DNA of 64,000 nucleotides from contig NC_003070.9 in NCBI RefSeq assembly GCF_000001735.4, positions 21,499,971 to 21,563,970 of the forward strand. Direction: 5' to 3'. The position numbers and the translations under genes were made by a program. Of the stretch, positions 23,096 through 36,775 are shown one piece after another. Within the stretch, counting starts at the first letter, position 1, and the number at the start of each line of letters is the position of its first letter. The notes below the pieces were generated by a model that worked only from the letters and a program-made list of their open reading frames with translations, was not told the DNA's origin and did no database searches. The stretch is from Arabidopsis thaliana (taxonomy: Eukaryota; Streptophyta; Magnoliopsida; Brassicales; Brassicaceae).

Positions 23096-23740
23096 ATGTG
23101 GTAGAGCGTCTTGGGATTTTCAGGATCTCCTTGACGATGAAATTTTCATTTGTACAATAATAATTCAAAACGTAGAGTCAGCTTCTTGAGGATTGTCGAA
23201 TTCGCTAGGAAGTACGAATGTCCCGAGATGCCGGTTTTGATATCAACAAACTCAAGCGACGATAACAAACACTCTGGAACAGCGAAAAAGTTGAACTGAC
23301 GCAGCTCTTCGTGATGTGAGATTTCCATACCTGAGGAAAAAAAGAGGGAAAAAAGGTAATGAAAAGTAGAGAGCACCCGAAAGACATTTACATACTCACA
23401 CACGGTTCCGACAATCTTCAACTTTTCCAAGACGGGACAACAAGAGACAAGTCTCTCAAAACTGGCCTCTTTGCGATACCAGATATATATCAAGTGGATA
23501 GTCTTCAGGCAAGGCAATGAAACAAACTCGACATCATCCAAGATAACCTCATAGAGTTTTAAAGATACTATCGTCTCACAGGTATAAAGACAAGACTTAT
23601 AGGGCATATCATACGAAGCATTGGGAGGACAACAAAATCTAGATGTTGGATCTTACGCTTAACTGCAGAATCAGTCCATGACTTGAGATAAGAGTGATCA
23701 TAATCTACATCTTCCTTCATAGAACACTTTGGAGGAACAG
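23096..23740 (-). pseudogene. F-box/FBD/LRR protein relic
   Basis: Minus-strand translation shows family pieces: SLKLYEVILDDVEFVSLPCLKTIHL (LRR), SFERLVSCCPVLEKLKIV (LRR), then after a likely intron FAVPECLLSSLEFVDIKTGISGH, and KEILKIPRRSTTC-like residues of the FBD end. The frame is broken at least twice: between an upstream SYLKSWTDSAVKRKIQHLDF segment (about 23,640-23,695) and the main ORF, and again near 23,150 before the FBD end. The F-box itself is absent. It is therefore a truncated, frameshifted member of the FBD family. Confidence 0.75.
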
Positions 23741-24617: not shown

Positions 24618-25019
24618 CATATTTTCAATAATGTTACACTACTCTCTCTTTTTCTTTTTCACAAAAAGTCAACCCTAACAAACAGTCAGACTCTATCTAA
24701 CCTTTGATAGACAAGGTCTATTTATTAGATCGATAATAAATAAATAAATAATAAAAGACTCGAATATAGGTATTTAAGTAAGACCACTGCAAACAAAATA
24801 TAAAATATTGACTTGTTATAGAAGTCATAAACAATTCTTTTTGTTTTTGAAATATTAAAAGTTCGACATGTAATTCTCAATTTTAATAAAATGAGCACTT
24901 TGGTGCCTCTATGTGGATTTTCTACAAGATCAAGTCAACAAGAAAAACACAGAAAATGGAAAAGCCTAGAAACGAGACGATGCCTGTTTTAGTGCTGCGA
25001 GGTTTCATAGTGGGAGCAA

Positions 25020-25024
25020 TATTT
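25020..25024. repeat. Target-site duplication TATTT (left)
   Basis: Identical 5 bp occurs at 29881-29885 right of the element. A 5-bp duplication is the normal size for Ty1/copia integrases. Confidence 0.9.
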
Positions 25025-25464
25025 TGTTAGAGTAAAATTCTTTTAGAGGTAATGGAGAAAGTGTTTAAGTGTTTTGAGAGAGTTTTTTAGGAAATAGAAC
25101 TTTTATTACTTTGCTTTAAACTTGAATACAACTTCACAATATTACAACATTTGAGAAGGGGAGGAGGTATTTATAGCCTCCAAACTACAAAATATCTAAA
25201 ATATTTTAATCCTAAGTCTAGAGAGTTCTTACATAAGATCTAGATTACATTATTCAAATTATCTAGATTATTCTATTAGAGTATCTAGATTTTTATGTTT
25301 AAGGAGGTGGAAGATGATTCTAGAAAATTTCTAGAATCTTTTAAGGAGGTGGAAATGATGATATTTCTAAAGAAAACTCTAGAACTTGGATTTGGCCATA
25401 ATTAATTATTGGATAATTGATCCAATAATTAAACTTGATTCAAAATCAAGTTTAACTTTCAACA
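25025..25464 (-). repeat. ONSEN 3' LTR, 440 bp
   Basis: In element orientation it starts TGTTGAAAG and ends TCTAACA. It carries an intact palindromic heat-shock element TTCtaGAAaatTTCtaGAA at 25318-25336 and a TATA box (TATAAATA on the minus strand, 25168-25175). The last codons and stop of the polyprotein lie inside it. A polypurine tract abuts it at 25465-25473. Confidence 0.93.
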
Positions 25465-28400
25465 CCCCCTCTTAAACTTGATTTTGCTACTCCAAGCAAA
25501 CTCCTCATCTTGATAAAGTCTTCACGCTTGAGAGGCTTGGTAAAAATATCGGCTACTTGATCATGTGTCTTCACATACTCCAATTGCACGTCCTTCTTGC
25601 TAACACACTCTCTAATGTAGTGATAGCGTGTGTCAATGTGTTTACTTCGATCATGGAAGACCGGGTTCTTCGCCAAAGCTATTGCCGACTTGTTGTCCAC
25701 AAAGATCTTCGTTGGTTCCTCTTGTGGTAAGCTTAACTCCTTCAAGAGGTTTCTTAACCAAATAGCATGGCATACACATGACGTAGCCGCTACATACTCC
25801 GCTTCACAAGTGGATAGAGTGACAATTGGTTGTTTCTTCGACATCCATGTGAAAGCCGTGTCTCCAATGTAAAACACAAAACCACTTGTACTCTTTCGGT
25901 CATCTACGTCTCCACCCCAATCGCTATCGCTATATCCAACAAGCTTGTAATCACTAGTAGTTGAATAATGTAAGCCAAAGTTTACGGTACCTTTGATATA
26001 GCGAAGAATCCTTTTTGCCGCTTTGAAATGAGTTGTTGTTGGATGCTCCATGTAACGACTAACAACTCCGACCGCATATAAAATATCGGGCCTTGTGCAT
26101 GTTAAGTATCTCAAGCTTCCAACCAAGCTCTTAAAGGTTGTTGGATCCACTCCTTCCCCTTCTTCTTTCTTTGATAGTTTGATTCCGCATTCCATTGGTG
26201 TACAAACGGGATTTGAGTCATCCATCTTGAACTTCTTAAGTACCTCCTTAGCATAGCCTTCTTGAGTTATGAATATTCCATTGTCTTCTTGTTTTACTTC
26301 AATTCCGAGATAGTAAGACATCAATCCAATGTCCGTCATCTCGAACTCCTTCGTCATCTCTTTCTTGAATTCTTCGAACATGCTTGGATTGTTACCCGTG
26401 AATATCAAGTCATCTACATATAAGCATGCGATCAATATATCTTCTTTTTGAATTTTGATATAGAGTGCATGCTCATATGGACACTTGATGAAATCTTTCT
26501 CCTTGAAATACTTGTCAATTCGAGTATTCCAAGCTCTTGGGGCTTGTTTTAATCCATAAAGCGCCTTTTTTAGTCTCAAGACTTTGTCTTCTTCACCTTT
26601 GACTATGTAGCCTTGTGGTTGCTCAATGTAAACTTCTTCTTCAAGATCTCCATTTAAGAAGGCCGACTTGACATCCATTTGATGTATCTTCCACTTGTTT
26701 TGAGCCGCTAGTGAGATGATTAGTCTAACCGTTTCTAGACGAGCAACGGGAGCAAATACCTCGTCATAGTCAATTCCGGCTCTTTGACTATAACCTTTTG
26801 CAACCAATCTTGCTTTGTATCTTTCCACTTCTCCTTTAGAGTTTTTCTTTGCTTTATACACCCACTTCACGCCAATTGCCTTGTGTCCATTTGGAAGTGA
26901 AGTTAACTCCCATGTGTCATTCTTTTGTATTGATTTGATCTCTTCATCCATGGCATTTCTCCAAGTCTTCTTTTCAATGGCTTCTTGGAAATCCATGGGT
27001 TCGCACTTTTCTTCTATTTGAGAACTTGTTGGTGAAGTTGGTGGTGTAGTAGGCTCTTCACTTGGTGGCTCCTCTCTTGTTGGCTCCGGCTTATCTTCTT
27101 CAAAATGTGGAAAGAAGTTATAATCTTCTTCATTTGAGTTCCAATCCCATTCTCCTTCTTCATCGAACACTATATTTCGACTAATAATTGTCTTCTTCGT
27201 ATCGGGATTATAGAGCTTGTAGCCTTTGGAGTTGTTATCATAACCAATGAAGATATACTTCTCACTTTTGTCATCTAGTTTGCTCCGCTTCTCATCCGGT
27301 ACATGAGCATGAGCAATACTTCCAAAGACTCTTAAATGAGAAACACCGGGCTTTCTTCCGCTCCAAGCTTCTTGTGGTGTTTTTCCGGAGACACTTTTTG
27401 TTGGAGATCGATTTAATAGATAAACCGCACACGCGACCGCTTCCGCCCACAACTCTTTTGGTAGTCTCTTACTTTTGAGCATGCTCCTTGCCATCTCAAG
27501 AATTGTTCTATTCTTTCTTTCCGCTACACCATTTTGTTGAGGGGATCTTGGCACCGTTAATTGTCTTCGAATGCCGTTGTCTTCACAATACTTAAGAAAC
27601 TCCTTGGATGTAAATTCTCCTCCACGGTCGGATCTCATGGTTTTGATCACAAGACCACTCTCCTTCTCAACATGGGCTTTAAACTTTTTGAAAATTTCGA
27701 ACACCTCGGATTTTTCTTTCAAAAAATATACCCATGTTTTTCTTGAAAAATCATCAATAAAGAGAAGGAAGTAATTACTTTTACCAAGTGATTTCGGCTT
27801 GATCGGACCACACACATCGGTGTGTATTAGCTCCAACGGTTTTTGTGCTCTTGAACTTGACTCCTTTGGAAAGCTCATTTTGAATTGCTTTCCAAGTAGA
27901 CATCCTTCACACACTTGATTTGGATGATTTATACAAGGTAGCCCTCTCACCATTTCCTTCCTTGAAAGCAACTCCAATCCTCCAAAATTTAGATGTCCGA
28001 ATCGAAGATGCCATAGCCAAGACTCCTCTTTGTAACACATCTTAAGACATTGTGCAATGTCATTTCGAATGTTGAGGACAAACATTCTATTTTTCGACAT
28101 TGGCACCTTGGTAATGAGATTGCTTTCTTGGTCTCTTATTGAAAGGTTATTATCTTTTAATCTAATATCATAACCTTTCTCTAAGAGTTGTCCAAGGCTC
28201 AAGATGTTTGTCTTCATGCTCGGAATATAGTAAACGTTGGAAATAAATTGATGATCTCCATTCTTCAATCGAATAAGAATGTTTCCTTTACCTTTTACCT
28301 CCATCTTCGATTCATCTCCTAAAGCCACATTTCCTCTCACCGATTCATCAAGCTCCGCGAACATACTTTTTCTCCCGCACATGTGATTACTTGCACCACT

Positions 28401-29414
28401 ATCGAGGTACCACTTATGATTCTCTTCTTGTTCATCTTTCTTGTAGCTAGCCATTAATAACATGTCTTCTTCTTGAATTTTTTCTTCAACGTAGTTGGCC
28501 TTCTCCTCAAATTTTTTGTTGCTAGGAGCTTTACATTCAGAAGCATAATGTCCAAACTTCCCACAATTGTAGCATTTGACACTTGATTTATCGTATCTTG
28601 ATTTTGGGTGTCCTTTCCCACGACCTCTTGATGAGTTTTCACCTCTTTGGTTTGTGTTGTCTTCATGTGGCCTCCAACCACGTCCATTTCCATATCCACC
28701 ACGACCTCGTCCTCGTACTTGACCACCACCTCTTCTTTGGTAACTTTGGCCGTTTTCTTCTTTTGTAATTTGCATATTGAGGACTTGTTCGACGATATCT
28801 TCTTTCTTCTTCTTCTTTTCTTCATAAGCTTGTAATGACCCAAGAAGTTGCTCTATTGTCATAGCTTCTAAATCTTTTGTTTCTTCAATGACGGTGACAA
28901 TATGCTCAAATTTTAGATCCAATGATCTAAGAACTTTCTCCATGATTCTCACATCATCTAGCTTCTCTCCGTTTCTTTTAAGGTTATTAGTAACCGTCAA
29001 CACTCTTGAGAAGTAATCGGAGACGAGTTCACCTTCCTTCATTTGTAGTGCTTCAAATTCTCCTCTTAGAGTTTGAAGACGTACTTTCTTGACTTGATCG
29101 GCACCTTTGTAAGAGGTTCGAAGCTTCTCCCATGCTTCTTTCGCCGACGTAGCTTCAACGACCTTCTCGAACGTATCTTCATCTAATCCTTGATAGATTA
29201 GACAGAGAGCTTTCTTGTCTCTCTTTCTTGAGTCTCTCAAACCATCTTTTTGAGTTTGAGAAAGACTACCTTCATTCTCCGGTTCAATGAAACCTTTCTC
29301 GACTATCTCCCACACGTCATGTGCTCCTAGGATAGCCTTCATTCGTAGACTCCAATTATCATAGTTGCTCTTTGTGAGCACCGGGACTTGGAAGGGAACA
29401 TTATTACTCGCCAT
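25452..29414 (-). CDS. ONSEN gag-pol polyprotein, about 1,320 aa, intact
   Basis: Start chosen at MASNN (29414), the usual family start; five in-frame codons (MKILK) extend to 29429. Gag occupies about residues 1-330, with an Arg/Gly-rich segment and zinc knuckle CYNCGKFGHYASEC (281-294). The aspartic protease has DSGAS (338-342). Integrase has an HHCC finger (WHLRFGHL ... CEGCLLGKQ) and catalytic D, D, E in HTDVCGP, SDRGGEF and NGVAERKN. Reverse transcriptase shows KARLVAKGYSQ and the YVDD box. RNase H shows GYSDSDWGGD, CEAEYVA and FVDNKSAI. No stop or frameshift interrupts it. The ORF ends SSLRGGVES with TAA inside the 3' LTR. It should supply all replication functions if transcribed. Confidence 0.95.
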   Translation of the reverse strand: MASNNVPFQVPVLTKSNYDNWSLRMKAILGAHDVWEIVEKGFIEPENEGSLSQTQKDGLRDSRKRDKKALCLIYQGLDEDTFEKVVEATSAKEAWEKLRTSYKGADQVKKVRLQTLRGEFEALQMKEGELVSDYFSRVLTVTNNLKRNGEKLDDVRIMEKVLRSLDLKFEHIVTVIEETKDLEAMTIEQLLGSLQAYEEKKKKKEDIVEQVLNMQITKEENGQSYQRRGGGQVRGRGRGGYGNGRGWRPHEDNTNQRGENSSRGRGKGHPKSRYDKSSVKCYNCGKFGHYASECKAPSNKKFEEKANYVEEKIQEEDMLLMASYKKDEQEENHKWYLDSGASNHMCGRKSMFAELDESVRGNVALGDESKMEVKGKGNILIRLKNGDHQFISNVYYIPSMKTNILSLGQLLEKGYDIRLKDNNLSIRDQESNLITKVPMSKNRMFVLNIRNDIAQCLKMCYKEESWLWHLRFGHLNFGGLELLSRKEMVRGLPCINHPNQVCEGCLLGKQFKMSFPKESSSRAQKPLELIHTDVCGPIKPKSLGKSNYFLLFIDDFSRKTWVYFLKEKSEVFEIFKKFKAHVEKESGLVIKTMRSDRGGEFTSKEFLKYCEDNGIRRQLTVPRSPQQNGVAERKNRTILEMARSMLKSKRLPKELWAEAVACAVYLLNRSPTKSVSGKTPQEAWSGRKPGVSHLRVFGSIAHAHVPDEKRSKLDDKSEKYIFIGYDNNSKGYKLYNPDTKKTIISRNIVFDEEGEWDWNSNEEDYNFFPHFEEDKPEPTREEPPSEEPTTPPTSPTSSQIEEKCEPMDFQEAIEKKTWRNAMDEEIKSIQKNDTWELTSLPNGHKAIGVKWVYKAKKNSKGEVERYKARLVAKGYSQRAGIDYDEVFAPVARLETVRLIISLAAQNKWKIHQMDVKSAFLNGDLEEEVYIEQPQGYIVKGEEDKVLRLKKALYGLKQAPRAWNTRIDKYFKEKDFIKCPYEHALYIKIQKEDILIACLYVDDLIFTGNNPSMFEEFKKEMTKEFEMTDIGLMSYYLGIEVKQEDNGIFITQEGYAKEVLKKFKMDDSNPVCTPMECGIKLSKKEEGEGVDPTTFKSLVGSLRYLTCTRPDILYAVGVVSRYMEHPTTTHFKAAKRILRYIKGTVNFGLHYSTTSDYKLVGYSDSDWGGDVDDRKSTSGFVFYIGDTAFTWMSKKQPIVTLSTCEAEYVAATSCVCHAIWLRNLLKELSLPQEEPTKIFVDNKSAIALAKNPVFHDRSKHIDTRYHYIRECVSKKDVQLEYVKTHDQVADIFTKPLKREDFIKMRSLLGVAKSSLRGGVES
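25465..25473 (-). other. ONSEN polypurine tract
   Basis: In element orientation AAGAGGGGG directly precedes the 3' LTR. It is the expected primer site for plus-strand DNA synthesis and also encodes part of the polyprotein tail. Confidence 0.85.
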
Positions 29415-29430
29415 CTTTAGGATCTTCAAG

Positions 29431-29441
29431 CTCTGATACCA
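29431..29441 (-). other. ONSEN primer-binding site
   Basis: In element orientation TGGTATCAGAG lies three bases after the 5' LTR end. It is complementary to the 3' end of plant initiator tRNA-Met, the common copia primer. Confidence 0.9.
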
Positions 29442-29444
29442 CTT

Positions 29445-29880
29445 TGTTAGAGTAAAATTCTTTTAGAGGTAATGGAGAAAGTGTTTAAGTGTTTTGAGAG
29501 AGTTTTTTAGGAAATAGAACTTTTATTACTTTGCTTTAAACTTGAATACAACTTCACAACATTACAACATTTGAGAAGGGGAGGAGGTATTTATAGCCTC
29601 CAAACTACAAAATATCTAAAATATTTTAATCCTAAATCTAGAGAGTTCTTATATAAGATCTAGATTACATTATTCAAATTATCTAGATTATTCTATTAAA
29701 GTATCTAGATTTTTATGTTTAAGGAGGTGGAAGATGATTGTAGAAAATTTCTAGAATCTTTTAAGGAGATGGAAATGATGATATTTCTAAAGAAAACTTT
29801 AGAACTTAGATTTGGCCATAATTAATTATTGGATAATTGATCCAATAATTAAACTTTTGAATCAAGTTTAACTTTCAACA
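29445..29880 (-). repeat. ONSEN 5' LTR, 436 bp (promoter LTR)
   Basis: Drives transcription leftward. It has a TATA box (TATAAATA on the minus strand, 29588-29595). The heat-shock element at 29738-29756 differs from the 3' LTR copy at one key base: plus-strand TTC (25318-25320) is TTG here, destroying one of the four GAA/TTC half-sites. Other differences are scattered transitions and a small indel near 29855. Confidence 0.92.
29738..29756 (-). promoter_or_regulatory. Heat-shock element of the 5' LTR, one half-site lost
   Basis: On the plus strand it reads TTGtaGAAaatTTCtaGAA, three intact half-sites of four. The 3' LTR equivalent (25318-25336) has TTC at the first position. It lies about 140 bp upstream of the TATA box in element orientation, as expected for HsfA binding in ONSEN LTRs. 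Confidence 0.8.
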
Positions 29881-29885
29881 TATTT
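29881..29885. repeat. Target-site duplication TATTT (right)
   Basis: Matches 25020-25024. Removing one copy and the element restores the exon reading frame. Confidence 0.9.
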
Positions 29886-30488
29886 CTGATTATTTGGAGC
29901 ATACGACGTGAGTTCCGTCTATCTCCTTCACTCTACTGATTTTGGTGTAGCCCTTGTTTATTTGCTTATGTTTATCTTTTGATCTGATCTATAAATATAT
30001 ATACAGGTTATCAAAAGGCCTCCACCAAAACCAACTCAACATCTCCGCCTCCATCTCCGCCTCCATCTCCGCCGCGAGTTCCAGACGCTCAAGAATTGGA
30101 GTACCTTAAATCCGACTCTTTTCCCGAACACGATGCGTAGAGTTGTCATTCGGACGGAGGTGTGCGTTCCGATAAAATTAGGCTACCGCCGCGGCTTTCA
30201 GACCTTCTAGAATTGGAGAAATTGTTTCCCGAACGCGAGGCGCTGAGTTGTCCTTTGGACGGAGATGAGGATTCCAATGAACTTAGGCTACGGCCGCTGG
30301 TTCCAGACGCTCAAGAATGGAAGTACCCTAAATCCAAGTTATTTCCCAGACACGCGGCGTGGAGTTGTCATTCGGGCGGAGGTGGAGGTGGAGGCGGTGG
30401 CCGTGTATTTACAAATAAAGTAAATGCGGTAGAAGAATTCAACTTAGGAGGACTGAAGGACAGCGAATCCGATTCCGATTCCGAGTAG

Positions 30489-31036
30489 GGAACTTTTAAA
30501 ACAACTTTGATTATGGATTTCGATATCCAGAATAATTTTAATTCACTGCTGTTGGACTTGATTAATTTCCTATCACATAACGTTTTGGTTTAACTTTGTA
30601 CGACCACCACACTTGCTTTGCTCGTGTCATCCACAGTTTTATTTTTAATAAATGTTATCTGCTATGAGCGTTTTACTTTGGTTTATAACCGATGCATGAC
30701 AATTACCGCCTTACCGGCACATCTCAGTCTTGTATGATGATTCGGTTGATTTCACTAACAACAAAATGCAATGAAGTAGTTTCATTAGGATATCTACACC
30801 CGAACTAGAGAGATAACCATTCCAGTTTAATATATATATAATCGTCCAATTCCTCTGGCTCTTGCTGCAATAAAACTAAAGGCAAAAGGTGGTGATGGAA
30901 GAGCTTTTTGTTGTTGTTGTTGCTAAATGGGTAAATATCATATAAAATGAAGAATTATGATTTACATGTAAATATCTAAGATTTAGTTCCTTGGCTAAAA
31001 AAATAAGGATAAAAAAAACAAGGAAGTAAACAAATT
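30489..31036. other. Intergenic, nothing recognised
   Basis: 3' region of the split gene and AT-rich spacer. A short TTGTTG run lies near 30,910. Confidence 0.5.
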
Positions 31037-31376
31037 TCAAGGTAGAAACTTCATTCGAGCCAAAGGTGAAAGGCCCATAAGGTTAAAAAACTTTCTTCGG
31101 TGCCTCCTTGCATTTATAGAGTTGATGAATTTCCGATCAAGGATCTTAAAAACAAAAGCAGGAGCAACATGTTGTGAATTATGGAACATGCTATTTCTCT
31201 GCTTCCAAGTCGCGTAAATCACCGCGCGCTTGAGATACTAGTTTCCTTAGTGTAGAAGGAGCAAAAGTCCTTGTCATTCGAATCCATGACAAAATCTCAT
31301 CCCAGTTCATGAACCGCATAGGATGCAGCTTTAGTCTGGACTGAACGAAGCTCCAGATTACCCTGTAAAACAGCAA
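31037..31376 (-). mobile_element. Non-LTR retrotransposon (LINE) 3' fragment
   Basis: Two overlapping minus-strand frames give, in order, a segment with FMNWDEILSWIRMT and STLRKLVSQA, and a segment with YATWKQRNSMFHN, FKILDRKFINSINARRHRRK. These match the C-terminal zf-RVT-flanking region of plant LINE-type reverse transcriptases (W+ERN...H pattern). The two pieces are in different frames, so it is a short, frameshifted relic with no RT core. Confidence 0.6.
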
Positions 31377-31399
31377 GCCAACATTAAATGATCCCCAGT

Positions 31400-31556
31400 C
31401 TCTAGCTCAGAAGATGCGAGTAATTTTGAAGGTGTTAGAAAGATATTCATAGCTAGACTAAGCGAAAACACTATAACCTTCGTCAAGATTATGTACTACA
31501 AAGACGCTTTGATGATCTACGAAGATGATCACAAAACCTTATTTGATGACAAAGAG
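31400..31556 (+). pseudogene. Possible jacalin-lectin exon relic
   Basis: An open frame reads SSSEDASNFEGVRKIFIARL, then a segment with ITFVKIMYYKD and EDDHKT, up to a GTAAC donor-like site. The pattern F/D-x-GV-K-I-x-V then I-x-Y-x-K-D resembles the first strands of a jacalin repeat. It has no start codon, second exon or full domain. It lies 2.2 kb from the jacalin gene below. Tentative. Confidence 0.35.
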
Positions 31557-33753
31557 GTAACTGTTTCAATTGCCTCAATTTAAAGCTTTAATTAGTACTT
31601 GATCAATTGAATATGTCACGTCAGTGGAGGGTAGTTATGACAATAAATCCAGAGTTATAACCATACTTAGAGCAACCCCAATGATAAGGGACCATGAGAG
31701 GCTCTTTCAATTTTTTTAATTATAAATTTTGACATTGGAGTTGGTACAAAAAAAATTAGCTTTGTACTCCACAAGGATGATAACATGATTGATGGGTTCC
31801 ATGGAAAATCAAGTAACATGCTTTTTCATCAAATTGGGCTCCATGTCAAACCCATCTGATCATCTAATTCTGGACTATATTTCATCATGTTCTTTTGTAA
31901 TCTCTCATCTTTTACACTACTACGTTCTGTCTTCTATGTTTTTTAAACTTGTCTAGTTAATTTCATATAGTAATAATAGTCTATGTAGATACTCTCAAAG
32001 GCTTGATAAATTTTCATTTTGGCCCTCCTACATATAATTTTTAAATTTTCTCTAAAAGATGATCCCTGCTTACATATAGTTTTTAGGATCATTTTGAAAA
32101 CTACATATTTATGAGTTGTAGTTTGAAAAGTACCCTTCTCTATTTAAAATAAAACTACTTTTATATATATGTAATATGACATTTTCCCAGATTTAAATTA
32201 AAAGCTATATTGTTAATAATTCAAAACTAAATTCAAAATTTGAAGAAAATTATAAACCAAATTCGAAATAAATATATATTATTATTATACATTCTTTTTT
32301 TCCGTTTTAAAATAAAGATGGTTTCTTGTTTTTTCTACTAAAATTAACAAGATAATATCTAAAATTAATATAAAGTTTATAGCTTACTGTCTCTATATCA
32401 TGTTATATAAAGCCAAAAATCTCCAAAACTCCAAATATAAACTCAACGAAGTCTGCATCAATGGAAAACATGGCAAAGTAAATGTTCAAACCATATATCA
32501 GATAACTTTTCATTTAGTTGAATATTTGTTTTTTAATGAGTTAATTTCAAATAAGGCATTTGTTTTACAAATGTATTTGCTTTTAGGCACTTTTGACCCA
32601 GCATTTAAAAACAGGTACTATCACTACGTGAAAAGTCATATTTCTCCCTTATTCACTAGTGTCATCTTCTCCACACGTTCTATTTACTCACTCGCAAAGG
32701 ACGAGACATGTGAACGGTTTCAATCGTTGAATCCTCAACGTTTGGTTATAATAGTTTATTAAGTTAATGCAGCGTTGAAATTGGAATTCAGAAACTGATC
32801 AAAATGGAATATCTGGCCGATGAAGATGATGAATAGAGAAATGTCGGTATCAAAAACAATTTTGATATTCCATGGCGATGTCTGATTCCAAATTTTATGA
32901 TTTCTCAAACAAAAAGCCAATTAAGTGAAGTTTAAAGAGGAATCGAGATGCCTTTGCGTTGATTTAGAATTCAATTATAATTTATGGGTTGTTGTTCAGT
33001 GGCATAATTACACAAATACACATGTATATACATGCATATATACACAAAATCAGAACTGAAATTCTATAAATTCTATAAATTTTTTTGATTGGGTTCCCTA
33101 TATACTATCTTAGGGTTTAATATTGTGTAATTAAAAACAAAATAAGTTTGCTTGAAAAATTAAGAAGAAATCGATTTGATCAGATTCTGCAACTATGTTC
33201 GATGAAGAAGAAGAGGAAAAGAAGACAAGGACAAAATTGTCCCAATTGAAGCAATAAATCGACACTGTTACATTCAACTGTGTAAAATACCTATTTTGAA
33301 ATAACTTTATTTAAAATGCCTATTTTGAATATAAGCTCTTTTTTAATAGTAGAATATTCATTATTCCTTTTTCAAGAAATATACAGAATACCAAATCTTT
33401 AGAACCAATTTTGATAAAGTAAAACATTTATCTATTATTAAAAAATCGAGTTTTTATTTTGAATTTTAGATTTTTGGTTAATTATTAAAAAGTTTAAGTA
33501 AAGTTAATTAAGTTATTTTCATATATATATATATATATATATTTGTTTTCTTAAAAGAGGGCATTTTTCGAAAGTGTAAAAAACGAGGCGGTTTTCCCAA
33601 TTTACTCTAGTTTTCAATGCGTATTAGTCCTTTGGAAACTCCGACTTAAACAGATCTGAAATTCCACCATTTTTTTTTCTGGAAGATCCATCGGGTACAA
33701 GTTTTAACTAAAAGAAACAGATCTGACTGATATAACTAAGACGATCCAATTCT
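31557..33753. other. Long AT-rich intergenic region
   Basis: No gene recognised. Contains a (TA)n run at about 33,522-33,542 and short unsupported ORFs. The final ~100 bp is the leader of the lectin gene. Confidence 0.5.
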
Positions 33754-34470
33754 ATGTCTACACCATCAGGTTCAAATCCGTTACCAATGGCCGACAAGTT
33801 AGAAGCAAAAGGTGGAAATGGAGGGAAGATATGGGATGATGGAGTCCATGAAGGAGTGTCATAAATCTATATACAAGAGGGTTCTACAGGTCGTATAGCA
33901 TCCATCAAGTTCGACTATGTCAAGAATGGTCAACCTAAAGCTGGATCAACCCATGGTGTCTCATATCACAATTTCACCGAGTGGGTATGTATGTCTTCTA
34001 GTTCTTGATGGGATCTTAGTATAATACTTGTTTAATGTGTATGATTCGGAAGACCAATGGATGTATATAGTTTTTGGTTAAATTTTTGTTTAGGTTTGGT
34101 TACTCTGTCTATGTCTAAATGTTTTGTCTGATTACAGTTGGAAATAACATAAAAACAGATGACTATTTCTACACAGTTCATCATCATCACCTTCTTTTAA
34201 TCAAACTGAATTGTCCATATTTTGCAGTTTGATCTTAACCATACATGCGATGAGCATATCTTATCTGTGAAGTGTTACTACGATGATGGTGAGATACAAG
34301 GACTTGTGATCAAAACCAATATCAGGACGTCTGCATATATGGGATATAACATTGGTACTACGTTTACACTTGAAGTCAAAGGCAAGAAGATCGTTGGGTT
34401 TCATGGATCTTTTGATAAAAACCTTACCTCGCTTGGAGCTTATTTCGCACCGCTTTCTCCTGCTAAGTAA
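33754..34470 (+). pseudogene. Single-domain jacalin-related lectin with premature stop
   Basis: Exon 1 (33754-33984) encodes MSTPSGSNPLPMADKLEAKG then GGNGGKIWDDG, the first jacalin strand. After GVHEGVS the frame meets TAA (33862-33864) where family members have Lys (AAA), then continues open with [20 protein letters not shown]. The GT donor at 33985 and AG at 34226-34227 join in frame to exon 2 (34228-34470), which carries the remaining strands including GEIQGLVIKT, FTLEVKGKKIVGFHG and LGAYFAPL. Without the stop it would be a complete ~155-residue mannose-type lectin domain. No downstream ATG rescues the first half. It could be a recent pseudogene or need an unusual start. Locus recalled as AT1G58160. 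Confidence 0.75.
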
Positions 34471-35929
34471 TTTGCTTGATCGTGACTCACGAGCTTGATA
34501 ATGTTGCTTGTTTATGCTTTGAATTTGTACTACTTTATTTGTATCATCTTCAATGTTTCTTTTCTTTGGATTGTCTTTCAGTCGTTTAAATAATTTTCGT
34601 AAACAAAGTGAGACTTATTATATGATAAATGTATTATTATGTCATTCATAGGACTATATATCAGTATTTTTGTCTTGACAATTTTAAATTTGATCCATAG
34701 ATGTCATCTATATGACTCTATATGACTAAGTATGGTAAATCATGAAAACATCATCAAACAATAAGAAAATATCAAAAGAACAAGAACTTATAATTAAGTA
34801 TGGTAAGTCACTTTAACATGTCTTGTGTTACAAAGGAGAAATTACATATTAAGTTAGTATAGGGCACATGTCCTACCTCCACATACCGTAGATACGCATA
34901 CGCCCCACGCCAATCAATCCTTCGACATACTCATCTATTGAAATGAGTGCAGTGTGCTAAAACGAATTTTCGAGCGGGTCAGGAACGTTGTTAATTATAG
35001 TTAGTTTCTAACCAGATTAATATCATGTGGCCTATATACGAGAAACCCGTACATAACACCTAATTATCTAATGTGATGATAAATGCATAAATGAGAGAAT
35101 GCTAAACTCTGGTAAAAAATTGGTGAACTCTTATCGATCAATGTATATACTGGATCATCATCCATAAGTGATGAAATCACAAACAACTTACAGCAAGAGA
35201 CTCATTATAAATAGTAAAATAGACATGTGAAATGTGTCTTGGGGAAATATTTTTTTTGTTTATAAAAGAGACAATTTTTTAAAATTCCAATGAAAATTTA
35301 CCAAGTTTTTTTTTGTAACTTTTACGTGTTTAATCTGAAAAAACATTGTTCATCTTCAACATTTCTCAATTGTTGCATTTTCTTATATCTAATCTATAAA
35401 TCGTAAAAATTTAAACCGTAATCTCAAAATCCGATACCTTAACCGTCGTCTTAAATCTCAATGAAACTCATAAATTTTTTATTATATCGAGCACTGCCGA
35501 CATCATAATCTTCTGTTTTCGTCTACCTTCCTTTTGATGTTGGGTCCATGGTTAATTTCATGTTACTTGCACGATAACGTCAGTCCATTGAAATAAATTT
35601 TAATTATTTAGTGTGAGAGGCTAGTTTAACAACCATCTGATGTGATAAGACCATTTGTGAGAATGTGAAATTTAATAAGGCAATTGTGAGACTTTTCAAG
35701 GATGAAAACCCTATCAGCATATTACATTCGGAATATATCGTATTTCATATAGTTTCCTCTAAATGTTTACCAATTTACTACAAGAAGCTATTTTTTAAGG
35801 TTCTGTATGTTTTTTTTTCCTTGATCATATTCTTATTCACTTAGTGAAATATATTTGATTTATTAACAGCTCTCTCCAAAAGATACCAAACATCCTTTTC
35901 AGTACGTTGGGAGTGGGTGCACCAACCCC
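34471..35929. other. Intergenic, nothing recognised
   Basis: AT-rich spacer between lectin and dirigent genes, without ORFs of note or repeat ends. Confidence 0.5.
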
Positions 35930-36205
35930 AGATCTCATTACATATTAACACGACCGTTCACTTTCTAGAATGTCCTCCTCCAGTCCTCCTCCATATATTA
36001 TTCTATCTCTATACATGCATCAAATCATAAAATGCAATAAGTGGAGCCACAAATCCCACTAAAGTCACCCTCACTAGATCTCATTACATATGTATACGAC
36101 CGTGCACTTTCGAGAATGTCCTCCTCCATATATTATGATATCTACACGCATCAAACCATAAAATGCAAAAATTGTACCCACAAAACCTAAGAAAGTCATC
36201 TCTCT
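35930..36205 (+). promoter_or_regulatory. Tandemly duplicated proximal promoter of the dirigent gene
   Basis: Two adjacent units, 35930-36075 and 36076-36205, share AGATCTCATTACATAT, ACGACCGT(T/G)CACTTTC, AGAATGTCCTCCTCC, CCATATATTAT, GCATCAAA(T/C)CATAAAATGCAA and AAAGTCA. Unit 2 ends about 13 bp before the ATG, so each unit contains a TATA-like CATATATTA. Identity is high but with several substitutions and small indels. Confidence 0.75.
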
Positions 36206-36217
36206 CCAGTCTCCACT

Positions 36218-36775
36218 ATGGGCAGTTTTCTCTCCTTCTTTCTTATTTCTTCTCGAACACTAGCCCTCGTCCTAATTTCCGTCACAGGAGAAACCCTTGA
36301 ATCTAATTTCTTGCATCACAAGAAAGAGAAACTAACTCATTTCAGAGTATACTGGCACGATATTGTAACCGGCCAAGATTCGTCTTCGGTGTCAATCATG
36401 AATCCTCCGAAAAAATACACGGGGGCAACGGGCTTTGGTCTCATGCGTATGATTGATAACCCTTTAACGCTCACACCAAAATTAAGCTCCAAAATGGTGG
36501 GAAGGGCACAAGGGTTTTATGCAGGCACATCTAAAGAAGAAATAGGATTATTGATGGCTATGAATTTTGCGATTCTTGATGGGAAATACAATGGAAGCAC
36601 GATCACAGTGTTAGGAAGAAATTCAGTGTTTGATAAGGTGAGGGAGATGCCAGTGATTGGAGGAAGTGGACTTTTCCGATTTGCTAGGGGTTATGTTCAA
36701 GCTAGCACACATGAGTTTAATCTCAAGACAGGGAACGCCATCGTTGAGTATAATTGTTATCTTTTGCACTACTAA
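36218..36775 (+). CDS. DIR19: Dirigent protein, 185 aa
   Basis: Single-exon gene. The N-terminal signal peptide spans about residues 1-24 (hydrophobic [10 protein letters not shown]...ALVLISVTG). A dirigent beta-barrel follows, with [67 protein letters not shown] and the closing [13 protein letters not shown]. Dirigent proteins guide stereoselective coupling of phenoxy radicals in the apoplast (lignans, lignin-related polymers). Substrate of this member is not known to me. Length and domain are complete. Behind the duplicated promoter. Symbol from memory (AT1G58170). Confidence 0.92.

Follow-up and report, generated by a model that had tools for sequence, protein, structure and literature searches.

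We analysed a 64,000-nt window of Arabidopsis thaliana chromosome 1 (21499971-21563970) in which a copy of the ONSEN/ATCOPIA78 transposon very probably interrupts a small, uncharacterised host gene; positions given without a chromosome label are those of the window, and the features are listed in Table 1. The element showed the properties of its family: two long terminal repeats (LTRs) of about 440 bp, TG...CA ends, close relationship to published copies, a 5-bp target-site duplication and heat-response elements in both LTRs. The preliminary description of this locus had proposed an ONSEN insertion flanked by a TATTT duplication and lying antisense to the gene, and each of these points was confirmed (Table 1). 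A search of the genome with the LTR gave 29 matches that formed eight pairs with a spacing of about 4.8-5.2 kb: four on chromosome 1, three on chromosome 3 and one on chromosome 5. Eight ONSEN copies are catalogued for Col-0 (PMC8501995), and the agreement of the eight pairs with these published copies identifies the element as the known copy AT1G58140, also called 'green' or ONSEN 4, which lies on chromosome 1 upstream of a jacalin-dirigent gene pair and has an LTR identity of 97%. In the portions of PMC5668417, PMC8501995 and PMC3907296 that were available, the interruption of a host gene by AT1G58140 goes unmentioned.

On either side of the element lie the two parts of what appears to be a single exon. 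When 25024 was joined to 29886, the sequence read MEKPRNETMPVLVLRGFIVGAIFLIIWSIR from the ATG at 24956, with the insertion point between codons 23 and 24 of exon 1 and inside a hydrophobic span whose best 19-residue stretch has a mean Kyte-Doolittle value of 2.47. Removal of 29908-30006 kept the frame, which runs on into a proline-rich stretch, while leaving this intron in introduced two in-frame stops. With the element in place, the frame terminates after 24 residues, at the edge of the LTR. The preliminary description had held that excision restores an open reading frame (ORF) which then crosses the GT-AG intron into the proline-rich region and three repeats. This was borne out up to a point: the joined frame is open through the span to codon 74 and is kept across the splice, but codon 75, within repeat 1, is a TAG (30138-30140), so that the frame is not open through the repeats; beyond it the frame is open again until the TAG at 30486-30488. 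An ORF fully restored to 30488 is ruled out by this in-frame TAG, which is a disabling lesion of the Col-0 gene additional to the transposon.

Table 1. Positions of the interrupted gene, the ONSEN element, the candidate 3' remnant and the paralogue.
Feature	Position	Strand	Remarks
Exon 1, 5' part	24956-25024	+	ATG, codons 1-23, first half of hydrophobic span; paralogue match E 1.8e-13
Target-site duplication TATTT, left copy	25020-25024	.	last five bases of exon 1, 5' part
ONSEN/ATCOPIA78 element	25025-29880	-	TG...CA ends; 4856 bp; antisense to host gene; published as AT1G58140
Element 3' LTR	25025-25464	-	440 bp; two TTCnnGAA heat-response cores
gag-pol ORF	25452-29414	-	open, 1320 codons; single long ORF of the element
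Element 5' LTR	29445-29880	-	436 bp; adjoins 3' part of gene; one TTCnnGAA core
Target-site duplication TATTT, right copy	29881-29885	.	
Exon 1, 3' part	29886-29907	+	remainder of hydrophobic span, up to splice donor
GT-AG intron	29908-30006	+	99 nt; homologous to 78-nt intron of paralogue
Exon 2	30007-30488	+	proline-rich stretch, internal repeats, glycine run, acidic DSDSDSE end; frame of exon 1
In-frame TAG, codon 75	30138-30140	+	second lesion; sense codons at this place in repeats 2 and 3
Candidate AT1G58150 model	30133-30488	+	276 nt, 91 aa, ATG 30133, 80-nt intron 30160-30239; Chr1:21530103-21530458; putative identity
Paralogue	Chr1:3671091-3670516	minus	uninterrupted, no internal stop; splice junction Chr1:3670980/3670901

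The strongest evidence for a split gene came from an uninterrupted relative elsewhere on chromosome 1. A search of the genome with the joined protein found four places: this locus (two matches), Chr1:3670978-3671064 on the minus strand (E 5.1e-4) and a weak one (E 5.28). DNA searches extended the similarity to three stretches of the paralogue: the left flank of the element (24926-25024) matched 3671106-3671002 (E 1.8e-13, 77%), the right flank (29886-30065) matched 3671001-3670849 (E 1.7e-16, 71%), and the C-terminus with the 3' flank (30401-30520) matched 3670591-3670473 (E 1.1e-15, 77%). The left match ends and the right match begins precisely where the element sits (3671002|3671001), and the alignment has no gap across this point or the donor site, with the same frame and the same GT-AG intron on both sides of the comparison. 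At the place of the TATTT duplication, the paralogue has a single copy of CATTT. Thus, a homologous intact gene that spans the insertion point in frame is present in Col-0 itself, with an ORF of 192 aa when its 78-nt intron is included and 166 aa without it. The two genes share exon 1, the position and phase of the intron, the first codons of exon 2, a C-terminal 'EF(D/N)LGG...DSDS' and the 3' flank; the paralogue differs in being uninterrupted and stop-free, in the repeats of its middle and in the length of its intron (78 vs 99 nt).

Proteins related to the paralogue indicated that its intron is indeed spliced. A protein search with the paralogue returned three entries among 83 candidates: P0002 (177 aa), in which the intron is retained; P0003 (161 aa), which is identical to the C-terminal 161 residues of the paralogue after splicing and lacks the 78-nt intron; and P0004 (169 aa), the A. 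suecica 'Transmembrane protein' ISN44_As01g010840, with the same splice junction and span. P0004 is a relative of the paralogue (71% identity over its full length) and not an orthologue of the window gene. Because a search of the genome with the paralogue found one full-length locus besides the window (2 matches), P0003 is probably not a genomic retrocopy and most likely comes from RNA; the source code 'lgn' we take to denote assemblies of public reads. The earlier proposal that ONSEN splits the exon for the hydrophobic span of a small uncharacterised gene was therefore upheld, in that the uninterrupted paralogue has the same exon, frame and intron and its spliced form exists. A processed origin of the window gene was ruled out by its retained intron. 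Pfam searches with the window protein and the paralogue protein gave only matches under the curated cut-offs and no named family. Near the paralogue, an ORF has an Mlo-family match (33.1 bits, cut-off 24), and the paralogue would be AT1G10990, beside AT1G11000. AT1G10990 is named merely as an unknown protein in the part of PMC9723156 available.

Together, these comparisons make it very probable that a host gene with a hydrophobic span received an antisense ONSEN insertion and a second lesion, while its sister stayed uninterrupted. The gene, one of two paralogues found in the Col-0 genome, would have encoded a protein in which a short N-terminal end precedes a single hydrophobic span (probably a membrane span) and a long proline-rich repeat tail that ends in an acidic run. 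Insertion within the codons of the span produced the 5-bp duplication and ended the frame after 24 residues, and the nonsense codon in exon 2 is a second lesion that may have come before or after it. The insertion and the nonsense codon mark the Col-0 locus as a pseudogene, whose sister at Chr1 3.67 Mb is uninterrupted. The function of the gene may have been lost or be covered by the paralogue. Any transcript of the 3' part, which is cut off from its old promoter, would have to start in the element, in the adjacent LTR or in the old intron; the accessible part of PMC12112155 reports that ONSEN insertions provide start sites on their antisense strand and that some of them are removed by splicing. 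The sequence TATAAATA at 29990-29997, in the former intron and upstream of the ATG at 30133, could act for a start site from which the severed 3' part is transcribed.

Several observations weigh against this reading. Neither an allele with an empty site nor an orthologue of the window gene was seen: protein searches returned only P0001 (1 of 334 candidates in one search, 1 of 1 in another), which is identical to the 108-aa tail ORF of the window itself. In the middle of exon 2, homology to the paralogue was not shown: the local protein score was reached by 96 of 1000 shuffles, and the DNA score by 10 of 500, where the top alignment lay at the C-terminal end (30396-30428) and kept the frame. 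The ratio of nonsynonymous to synonymous change (dN/dS) relative to the paralogue was 0.60 (dS 0.24, dN 0.15) over 44 codons chosen as alignable, which is weak evidence of constraint. Two pairs of direct repeats were found, 30120-30218 matching 30225-30323 and 30071-30162 matching 30293-30384, and between these internal repeats the frame of the gene has no synonymous excess; repeats 1 and 2 lean the other way, with 0.5 synonymous differences (Sd) and 21.5 nonsynonymous differences (Nd), p 0.0044 in one of nine tests. In the +2 frame, despite its stops, two comparisons out of three give a synonymous excess (p 0.026 and 0.006, with 0.14 for the remaining one). Across 30071-30384, each of the three repeat comparisons showed most variation at codon position 2, and the differences between repeats 1 and 2 at positions 1, 2 and 3 number 9, 12 and 1, as though the +2 frame had been constrained. 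The idea that the middle repeats are homologous to those of the paralogue was tested by the same shuffling and was not shown.

Some of these observations fit a different history, in which the nonsense codon arose first and the gene was already dead before ONSEN landed, so that the insertion broke nothing working. The in-frame TAG at codon 75, the weak constraint over the 44 alignable codons and the internal repeats without synonymous excess in the frame of the gene all speak for such a history. However, the frame agrees with that of the paralogue at the start and the end of the gene with one stop between, which argues that decay has been slight, at least outside the middle, which is unalignable and cannot be judged. 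We regard an earlier death of the gene as possible, although somewhat doubtful.

Another alternative would leave Col-0 with a shorter in-frame product, the element being handled as an intron from a cryptic donor to the acceptor at 30006. The candidate donor, at 25002, is the one of four GT dinucleotides in 24956-25023 that is in phase with the acceptor, and a full-length exonic ONSEN insertion has been reported as spliced out (PMC12112155, in the part available), yet the donor is a dinucleotide match only, and half of the span would be missing from the product, which would in any case run into the TAG at 30138; we consider this very unlikely. Chance agreement of exon, intron and frame, with the element in ordinary intergenic DNA, is scarcely credible, and the preliminary description had already judged it unlikely: even though the middle of exon 2 lacks a significant relative, the two flank matches to the paralogue adjoin at the insertion point and share its frame and intron, and we reject it.

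The split-gene reading bears on a catalogued gene, AT1G58150. Because AT1G58140 is the ONSEN copy and the jacalin gene of the window fits AT1G58160, gene numbering places AT1G58150 between them, and a table in PMC6303091 gives its 'Gene-length' as 276. We listed all ATG-to-stop models of exactly 276 nt with none or one GT-AG intron of 65-1199 nt in 29881-36217, models with two or more introns being excluded. Of the 33 such models (24 on the plus strand, 9 on the minus), a single one, at 30133-30488, lies wholly within exon 2 of the broken gene; three others with an intron of <110 nt run from 32400 to 32762 or 32778. With 33 models, and multi-intron ones unlisted, length alone is insufficient to identify AT1G58150, which tells against the assignment, and the protein database held no entry named AT1G58150, only P0001. 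Still, AT1G58150 follows AT1G58140 in numbering and a 276-nt model fits exon 2 of the broken gene, and we conclude that AT1G58150 is probably the 3' remnant of that gene.

This would differ from the published account of AT1G58150. In the available part of PMC11721784 it is one of seven 'de novo genes' tested with mutants, said to be born from noncoding DNA and chosen for more than 1 transcript per million (TPM >1) in multiple tissues and for being nearly fixed per population; of the seven, a significant phenotype is given there for AT1G03106 only. ONSEN has no occurrence in the text of PMC11721784. At1g58150 is also listed, without explanation in the part available, among putative metabolic-network genes (PMC5086045). 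If AT1G58150 is the model at 30133-30488, its C-terminal end has a coding homologue in the paralogue, read in the same frame (the match at 30401-30520), which speaks against noncoding birth. For the fuller proposal, in which AT1G58150 would be what is left, on the 3' side, of an older membrane-protein gene with two paralogues that ONSEN cut in two, and would be expressed from a start site of the antisense element, the heat-responsive LTR or the former intron, we see the case as evenly balanced.

Disruption of genes by transposons is well known and an ordinary kind of event, and the catalogue of eight copies already includes this element; what is new here is the host gene broken by AT1G58140, its uninterrupted sister and the second lesion. 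Should AT1G58150 prove to be the 3' remnant, the seven genes of the de novo function study would include a truncated old gene. Genes truncated by transposons could in that case be mistaken for 'de novo' genes, and lists of such genes could be checked simply by looking for transposon disruption. For the uncharacterised, probable membrane protein, the locus would also provide a natural null, and uninterrupted alleles are likely to be found elsewhere in the species.

The presence and age of the insertion can be considered from other accessions and from the LTRs. Kyoto has five full-length ONSEN copies, one per chromosome, and the position of the copy near the centromere of chromosome 3 is conserved between Kyoto and Col-0 (PMC9340270). 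The available text of that source, as distinct from its figure, suggests that Kyoto is without a full-length element at the window locus and hence would carry an empty-site allele there. Two other copies, ONSEN 7 and 8, are described as common to most accessions in the part of PMC3907296 available. The empty-site 23-mer had no matches in viral_contigs and none in genome_contigs, a weak test given that neither collection is of plants. For AT1G58140, PMC5668417 gives the LTR identity of 97% and states that the five old copies last moved 0.5-1 million years ago. Between the two LTRs of the window element we found 11 substitutions and one 4-base deletion, and, with polarity judged against 11 other LTRs (of the 28 other matches), the 5' LTR carried the derived state for 10 of the 11 substitutions and for the deletion (p 0.012 under equal sharing between the LTRs). 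Three of these ten are next to the deletion and may have arisen together with it in one event, which would weaken this p value. With most changes on the 5' side, LTR dating of this copy rests on uneven decay. The 5' LTR also has one TTCnnGAA core, whereas the 3' LTR and all 11 of the other LTRs examined have two.

The window copy is 100 bp shorter than three other copies (4856 vs 4956 bp); 96 of the missing 100 bp are internal to the element and outside 25465-26600, and its gag-pol ORF is still open. In the parts available, PMC5668417 and PMC8501995 are in conflict over whether AT1G58140 has a complete coding sequence, and an in-frame internal deletion could explain both views. Transcription of this copy is described as very weak (PMC8501995), and formation of extrachromosomal DNA from it as possible (PMC3907296).

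Downstream of the broken gene, Pfam searches found a jacalin-domain match at 34210-34467 (59 bits) and a second at 33865-34005 below the cut-off (20.2 vs 22), and a domain search placed a dirigent gene at 36218-36772. AtJAX1 (AT1G58160) and AtDIR19 (AT1G58170) are adjacent on chromosome 1 (PMC9824508); the jacalin exons at 33865-34467, ahead of the dirigent gene, sit where AtJAX1 belongs, and the pair fits AT1G58160 and AT1G58170. On the other side of the locus, a minus-strand ORF at 23146-23607 has FBD and LRR_2 matches over the cut-off and is a probable F-box gene fragment.

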